This document shows positions 2,566 through 19,329 of a stretch of 26,319 nucleotides of DNA, piece by piece (the first letter of the stretch is position 1; each line of letters opens with the position of its first letter). Under the pieces are notes generated by a model that was not told where the DNA came from, did no database searches, and saw only the letters and a program-made list of their open reading frames with translations. The stretch lies in the IMG/VR virus record IMGVR_UViG_3300025652_000457, positions 1 to 26,319 of that record, one strand, 5' to 3'. Position numbers and translations under genes: made by a program. This stretch comes from a virus.

Positions 2566-3793
2566 GACTGAACTACCAGCAATATTTAAACCCTTTGCAA
2601 CTAAGAAGCATCGATACCGAATAGCGCATGGTGGAAGGGGTAGTGGAAAGTCATGGGCCATAGCTCAACTTCTAATTATAGAAGCCTACAGCAAAAAGAC
2701 TAGGATACTATGCGCCCGTGAGATTCAACGCTCAGTGGCTGACTCAGTCTTGCAGTTGCTTGCCGATACTATCACCCGACTAGGCATGGATGATTTCTTT
2801 GAAGTTCAAAAGACTCAGATACTAGGTAAGAATGGTTCACGCTTTATCTTTGAGGGTTTGCGGTCCAACGTCAATAAGATTAAGTCTATGGAAGGTATTG
2901 ATCGCGTATGGTGCGAAGAGGCCGAGGGCATTACCCGTGGCTCATGGGAAACTCTTATTCCAACAATCCGTAAAGAAGGGTCAGAGATTTGGGTCAGTTT
3001 TAACCCGATGCGCCAGCACGATGACACTTATCAGCGTTTTGTTATATCGCCACCGCCCGATTCAATCGTGGTCGAGTGTAATTGGAGCGACAATCCCTGG
3101 TTCCCGATTGAGTTAAACAAAGAACGACTTCACCTATTAGAGACTGATCCTGACCTATACCAACACATTTGGATGGGACAGTGCATGACCGCTCACAAGG
3201 GGGCTTACTATGCCGAGCAAATGAGGCAAGCCAAGACTGAGGGTCGCATTACAAACGTCCCGTGGGAGCAGTCAATACCAGTTCAGACATGGTGGGATCT
3301 AGGAGTGGCTGACTCAACGTCAATATGGTTTACCCAATCGGTAGGCAAAGAGATCCGCGTCATCGATTACGAAGAGCATTCTGGGGAGGGGCTGGCATTC
3401 TATGTCAAGTTACTGCGTGAAAAACCATACATATATGACGAGCATTGGGGTCCACACGACATCAGAGTTAGAGAGCTAGGAACAGGTAGGTCTAGGCTAG
3501 AGCAGGCAGGAGAGATGGGCCTGCACTTTAACGTGGTAAAGAACATTCCCATTATGGATGGCATACAGGCAGCACGATCACTCTTTAACCGATGTTGGTT
3601 TGATGAGCAGAAGTGTCGATTAGGATTAGATTGCCTAGCGACATATCACAAAGAGTATGACGAGATTAACCAGGTCTATAAGTCACGACCTGTTCACGAC
3701 TTCTCAAGTCATGGTGCTGATGCCTGGCGTTACTTTGCCGTTGGCTGGAATGAGCCTCAAACATCCACTCCTTTAGTCATCAGTTCATTCTAA
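2549..3793 (+). CDS. terL: Terminase large subunit, Sf6/PBSX type
   Basis: This is the ATP-driven DNA packaging motor and headful nuclease. In the 414-residue protein the Walker A is GGRGSGKS (28-35), the Walker B region RVWCEEAE (119-126) includes the catalytic Glu, and the coupling motif is WVSFNP (148-153). The nuclease domain starts at TWWDLGVADS (247-256), with Asp250 and Asp255, and ends at DFSSHGADAW (384-393), with Asp384 and Asp391 as likely metal ligands. The N-terminal third, including RYRIAHGGRGSGKSWAIAQL, closely resembles phage Sf6 gp2, not T7 gp19. The frame is open from 2432, but ATG 2549 gives the family N-terminus. The gene is placed ahead of the portal, as in P22-like phages, whereas T7 has terminase at the far end. 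Confidence 0.93.
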   Translation: MCPLIETELPAIFKPFATKKHRYRIAHGGRGSGKSWAIAQLLIIEAYSKKTRILCAREIQRSVADSVLQLLADTITRLGMDDFFEVQKTQILGKNGSRFIFEGLRSNVNKIKSMEGIDRVWCEEAEGITRGSWETLIPTIRKEGSEIWVSFNPMRQHDDTYQRFVISPPPDSIVVECNWSDNPWFPIELNKERLHLLETDPDLYQHIWMGQCMTAHKGAYYAEQMRQAKTEGRITNVPWEQSIPVQTWWDLGVADSTSIWFTQSVGKEIRVIDYEEHSGEGLAFYVKLLREKPYIYDEHWGPHDIRVRELGTGRSRLEQAGEMGLHFNVVKNIPIMDGIQAARSLFNRCWFDEQKCRLGLDCLATYHKEYDEINQVYKSRPVHDFSSHGADAWRYFAVGWNEPQTSTPLVISSF

Positions 3794-3804
3794 TAACCGC
3801 GCAA
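3788..3804 (+). promoter_or_regulatory. Repeated intergenic motif, copy 1 (TTCTAATAACCGCGCAA)
   Basis: This is the first of three copies of a 13-base exact motif, here extended to 17 bases identical to copy 3. It overlaps the terL stop codon and is followed by a 40-base AT-rich stretch (around GATTATATAAATTA) before the ribosome binding site of the next gene. All three copies lie directly after a stop codon in one of the few real gaps. A phage promoter or transcript-processing signal is the likely role, by inference. Confidence 0.6.
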
Positions 3805-19318: not shown

Positions 19319-19329
19319 TAACCGCGCAA
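19313..19329 (+). promoter_or_regulatory. Repeated intergenic motif, copy 3 (TTCTAATAACCGCGCAA)
   Basis: All 17 bases are identical to copy 1 at 3788. The motif overlaps the stop codon of the 952-residue gene and is followed four bases later by an 11-base palindrome, ACAGT-T-ACTGT (19333-19343). The tail-fibre ribosome binding site follows at 19360. It opens the third gap of the late array. Confidence 0.6.

Follow-up and report, generated by a model that had tools for sequence, protein, structure and literature searches.

Three copies of a short box, each in a gap before a block of structural or lysis genes, very likely have a promoter function of some kind in an uncultured marine podophage. 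They are probably activator-dependent late promoters, at which a host polymerase of the sigma70 type would act together with a phage-coded activator. Read from the sequence are the box, its spacing, a -10 signature, the positions, the conservation, a terminator behind the capsid gene and the presence of a 147-aa protein (hereafter REG147); from these we infer that transcription would start at the three sites, that it would be late, that it would need an activator and that REG147 may be this activator. The box would be a late-promoter marker for an uncultured marine phage group whose gene control is unstudied, and exact base predictions with a named candidate regulator make this reading testable.

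Three copies of a box at gene block borders

The window, i.e., the whole stretch of 26,319 bases analysed here, comes from the uncultured virus record IMGVR_UViG_3300025652_000457, which is probably a fragment of a phage genome. It codes for a podophage late region with NinB, a weak NinG match, a dUTPase and REG147, and further with the large terminase, the portal, a scaffold/protease-like protein, the capsid, virion proteins, the tail fibre and an M15 peptidase. The tail fibre (19371-21200) contains low-complexity repeats of the ATTKASEA type.

As originally predicted, the 13-mer TTCTAATAACCGC is present in three exact copies, all on the + strand, at 3788-3800, 7839-7851 and 19313-19325, and the first and third copies have 17 bases in common (TTCTAATAACCGCGCAA). 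The core of the box, CTAATAACCG, lies at 3790-3799 (the predicted -35 to -26 of the first promoter), 7841-7850 and 19315-19324. No other 13-mer occurs three or more times in the window, and a triple of any 13-mer, anywhere, arose in two of 300 third-order Markov simulations. Copy 1 overlaps the stop codon of the large terminase gene (end at 3793) and copy 3, before the tail fibre gene, overlaps that of a 952-aa gene (end at 19318); both open with the last sense codon TTC (Phe), include the stop codon TAA and continue with TAACCGC. The description of each copy as directly following a stop codon therefore fits copy 2, which comes after a stop at 7836-7838, but not copies 1 and 3, where the motif overlaps the stop. 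Copy 2, upstream of the capsid gene, is indeed the one copy that is entirely non-coding. When we looked for TAATAACCG as a known motif in papers, there was no relevant match among the matches listed.

Conservation of the box in relatives

Relatives were collected via the capsid, terminase, tail fibre and REG147. The core, as CTAATAACCG or TTAATAACCG, was found in the capsid gap of 30/30 distinct sequences (capsid identity of at least 70%), in the tail fibre gap of 10/10 (identity of at least 70%) and after the terminase in 13/16 (terminase identity of at least 60%), counts that are inflated by kinship, as the sites are related by descent and are not independent events. The three exceptions after the terminase are L259, where a cassette was inserted and the box was kept, and L260 and L261, contigs that end before the place of the box. 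Contigs G001 (37.3 kb) and G002 (28.8 kb) each contain exactly three boxes, in the same three gaps; the completeness of G001 is not proven, and its count covers these 37.3 kb. A weight-matrix scan of both gave three sites of at least 27 bits, with the next best at 9.8 and thus no fourth site near. The original prediction was open to refutation by many copies inside genes or by a lack of conservation at the same gaps. It withstood both, as G001 and G002 contain no extra intragenic copies and relatives keep the box at the same gaps. Judged by its sequence conservation, the box is a functional site in this phage group.

The surroundings of the box are less constant. In L259, three reverse genes are inserted between the terminase and the portal block (4484-6048), and the box is found 1.5 kb further on, still before the portal block and 78 bases from a reverse gene; it keeps the -10 signature described below despite the reverse cassette. 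Contigs L246-L254, L262, L263, L267 and L269 keep the box with no detected relative of this terminase upstream, and REG147 is likewise kept with no detected terminase relative in L246, L248, L249-L254, L262, L263, L267 and L269. The terminase upstream of the box thus seems to have been replaced in contigs with no detectable relative of it. Copy 2, L259 and the terminase replacement rule out an explanation of the box as a stop codon or coding feature. Two box copies are found in the first gap in L032 (193-1042) and L257 (2660-3636), and in L032 an extra gene for a proline-rich protein of 241 aa sits between the two.

Further away, the box changes and is then lost. In L047, a relative with 65% capsid identity, it has diverged to TGTAACCG, with TACATT retained at the same spacing. 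The more distant HTVC010P-like relatives have no box before the capsid gene, and many of them have a TATAAT-like -10 at the same place, just after the preceding stop codon; this reading rests on inspected sequences instead of on the count of 21 from a pattern search, as that pattern is not strict and matched in part within the preceding gene. The cultured phages among the relatives, compared by capsid, are all below 60% identity.

A -10 signature downstream of the box

A hexamer of the form nAnnnT follows 13 bp downstream of the box, with its A and T present in 58/58 distinct sites of the clade. In all sequence examined, the pair is present at 58 of 59 sites, and the lone exception is a chance in-frame coding match inside a gene of an unrelated phage. 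In an alignment of 54 sites from three unrelated gap contexts, the A at position 15 reaches a frequency of 0.98 and the T at position 19 reaches 1.00, counted after CCG. Outside the box and its edge, these are the only two bases that the 54 sites have in common, with partial agreement just past the box, and none of 1980 shifted alignments matched their conservation. Sites that were fetched afterwards have the pair in 11/11 cases. The -11A and -7T are the most conserved bases of the sigma70 -10 element. By base and spacing, the pair matches the -11A and -7T of a sigma70-type -10 element, which places the box at -35 to -26.

On the + strand of the window, the predicted -10 elements are CAACAT at 3813-3818 (A at -11 and T at -7), with transcription expected to start at about 3825; GATCAT at 7864-7869, with a start at about 7876-7877; and TACTGT at 19338-19343, with a start at about 19350. 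These hexamers match TATAAT at only two or three of six bases. The claim that no sigma-70 box is visible held up for simple consensus searches: a sigma70 consensus scan was empty at the three gaps, and no consensus match to a TTGACA-like -35 with a spacer of 16-18 bp was found there. The motif itself was considered as a -10 box and rejected, as this gives no account of the invariant A and T downstream.

Some alleles of the first gap (L039, L040, L112, L117 and L262) have a start codon at the predicted +1 or +2; L103 and its kin have one upstream of the predicted +1. This means that the model used here is slightly off for either the transcription start or the gene start. The start codons at +1/+2 possibly reflect leaderless mRNA or a hexamer that doubles as a ribosome-binding site, a role that the hexamer CAAGGT, seen in several alleles of this gap, could have.

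This arrangement resembles the middle promoters of T4, where a MotA box at a distance of 13 bp from the -10 element likewise occupies -35 to -26 (PMC2988021). In both cases, a ten-base phage box occupies -35 to -26 in place of a -35 element, upstream of a sigma70-type -10, and the box at about -35 to -26 and 12-13 bp upstream of a sigma70 -10, as in T4, is what the window contains. However, the MotA box is wwwTGCTTtA, whereas the box here is CTAATAACCG; T4 needs an excellent -10, whereas the -10 here is weak; and, unlike in T4, there are only three sites, which are found before late structural genes.

A candidate reader of the box

The late promoter would be bipartite, with the motif as its upstream half: CTAATAACCG at -35 to -26, then 13 bp and a weak nAnnnT -10. 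Host RNA polymerase would use such promoters, which lack a usual -35 box, via its sigma70-type factor, and a phage-coded protein bound to the box would recruit the polymerase or hold it there, like MotA at T4 middle promoters. Promoter 1 would then start the portal/scaffold block and promoter 3 the tail fibre/lysis block; promoter 2 would start the capsid unit, which has a leader RNA and a terminator of its own.

The most likely box-binding protein would be REG147 (1617-2060, + strand), which has two predicted helix-turn-helix domains, the first of them sigma-region-4-like. Its gene is located between those for the dUTPase and the small terminase (TerS). In lambdoid phages, the Q gene occupies the corresponding place, between nin-type genes and the terminase. 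Of the motif-bearing contigs, the first ones checked that extend to the place of REG147 all contain it (10/10). The contigs added later via REG147 carry the box, save L260, L261 and L264, which stop too soon to show it. To the left of the terminase, the window, G001 and G002 share only the dUTPase, REG147, TerS and a diverged NinB, among which REG147 is the only predicted DNA-binding protein. The G001 homologue matches sigma region 4 (PF04545) with 26.4 bits against a cut-off of 24.1, while the copy in the window stays below the cut-off; in Pfam, REG147 matches helix-turn-helix families only, and PF04545 is one among several. In genome scans of G001, G002 and G004 with PF04545, it was the sole match. 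Two AlphaFold models of REG147 both have low confidence (mean pLDDT of 66), and with these models Foldseek gave no match at an E-value of 0.001 or better, and VIA-align matched generic helix-turn-helix proteins only, with a best Z of 5.5. The cultured phages yielded a single weak match to REG147, in its C-terminal part. The tie between REG147 and the box consists of position and co-inheritance only, and as a matter of judgement rather than of computation we give about even chances to REG147 being the activator that reads it.

More tentatively, and with the chances somewhat against it, REG147 might be a late activator of a new kind, a small phage protein with a detached sigma-region-4-like domain that does the job of the -35 contact at the three late promoters; this temperate marine podophage would have reached the geometry of T4 MotA independently. 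If REG147 reads the box, the replacement of sigma's -35 contact by a phage protein would have a further, independent example.

Alternative explanations

Among the three candidates of the original prediction, a regulator-dependent late promoter fits best, whereas a phage RNA polymerase promoter and an RNA-processing site fare worse. In T7, the promoters phi10 and phi17 precede the capsid and tail fibre genes, and a terminator follows the capsid gene. The predicted promoters and the terminator that ends the capsid unit here resemble this arrangement, as would be expected of late promoters for a single-subunit phage RNA polymerase. We nevertheless consider such a polymerase hardly credible, as each box is followed by a host-type -10 signature and the early region of G001 (37.3 kb) has no gene of the size needed, the largest there coding for a helicase of 491 aa. 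The large virion proteins of the window gave no polymerase match either, and the layout is lambda-like, with NinB, NinG, a repressor and an integrase. The suggested search for a polymerase or late regulator gene turned up no single-subunit RNA polymerase but did yield REG147 as a candidate regulator; a search with PF00940 had no match, but its control was equally silent, so that this is no evidence by itself. An element that acts in RNA (processing or stability), or a shared module-boundary sequence that aids phage recombination, would suit the position of the box at module borders, with the terminase swapped beside it. This is also very improbable: the A and T at 13-bp spacing are kept in all three gaps, the L259 box still has its -10 signature 78 bases from a reverse gene, a pure recombination linker requires no fixed bases downstream and RNA processing does not account for the invariant pair at -11/-7.

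An unrecognised phage sigma factor, instead of host sigma70 plus an activator, might read the box and hexamer, as in phage 7-11 (GTAAtg-16-aCTA) or phiEco32 (tAATGTAtA). In phage 7-11, two-part promoters before late genes are read by the phage sigma SaPh711_gp47 (PMC8948821), and the bipartite design, the TAAT in the upstream element and the sigma-region-4-like domain of REG147 are all compatible with this. However, spacing and sequence differ from those of 7-11, REG147 does not have the length of a full sigma, region 2 of sigma70 reads the A and T found at -11/-7, and no gene with sigma region 2 (PF04542) was found in seven contigs, which may be incomplete, although the control was positive in 10 genomes. 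A phage sigma is unlikely, if less so than antitermination of the Q type, in which a phage protein binds a box embedded in the promoter and the polymerase then ignores terminators. REG147 is placed where lambda has Q, between nin-type genes and the terminase, and its predicted domain is in line with the helix-turn-helix of 21Q, for which a resemblance to sigma region 4 is described (PMC6606751); a comparable case is GafZ (PMC11150451). Yet the Q of phage 21 binds a direct repeat located between -35 and -10 (PMC6606751), whereas the box here is single, non-repeated and at -35 to -26. It also occurs at three sites rather than one; two of these lie within the late array, where the gaps showed no terminator-like hairpin. 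We regard Q-type antitermination as improbable.

The capsid unit

On the + strand, a strong intrinsic terminator is found at 8891-8920, about 20 bases past the capsid stop codon, and 28/28 relatives from the clade have it, compared to 0.6 expected from shuffles. This indicates that the capsid gene is a unit of its own. The capsid gene has a conserved, structured leader RNA (7877-8017, + strand), which begins at the predicted transcription start of promoter 2 and contains two hairpins with a common internal loop, AGTCC/GGGTAGCT. This leader may be a translation control element. Rfam gave no real match in the window, with one isrG match far below the cut-off, and no family at gathering score in seven relatives. 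The leaders of distant relatives contain similar repeated CC..GGATAA or GTAGC elements.

Temperate features and host

One match was found in a 28.3 kb contig of a Bermanella MAG; as this contig looks like the phage itself, the match does not settle the host. A tRNA-Cys is located at the edge of the phage in L096 (14660-14733) and in G002, and a phage-type integrase and a C1-like repressor are present. The tRNA-Cys edge in these two contigs is likely the attachment site of a temperate phage.
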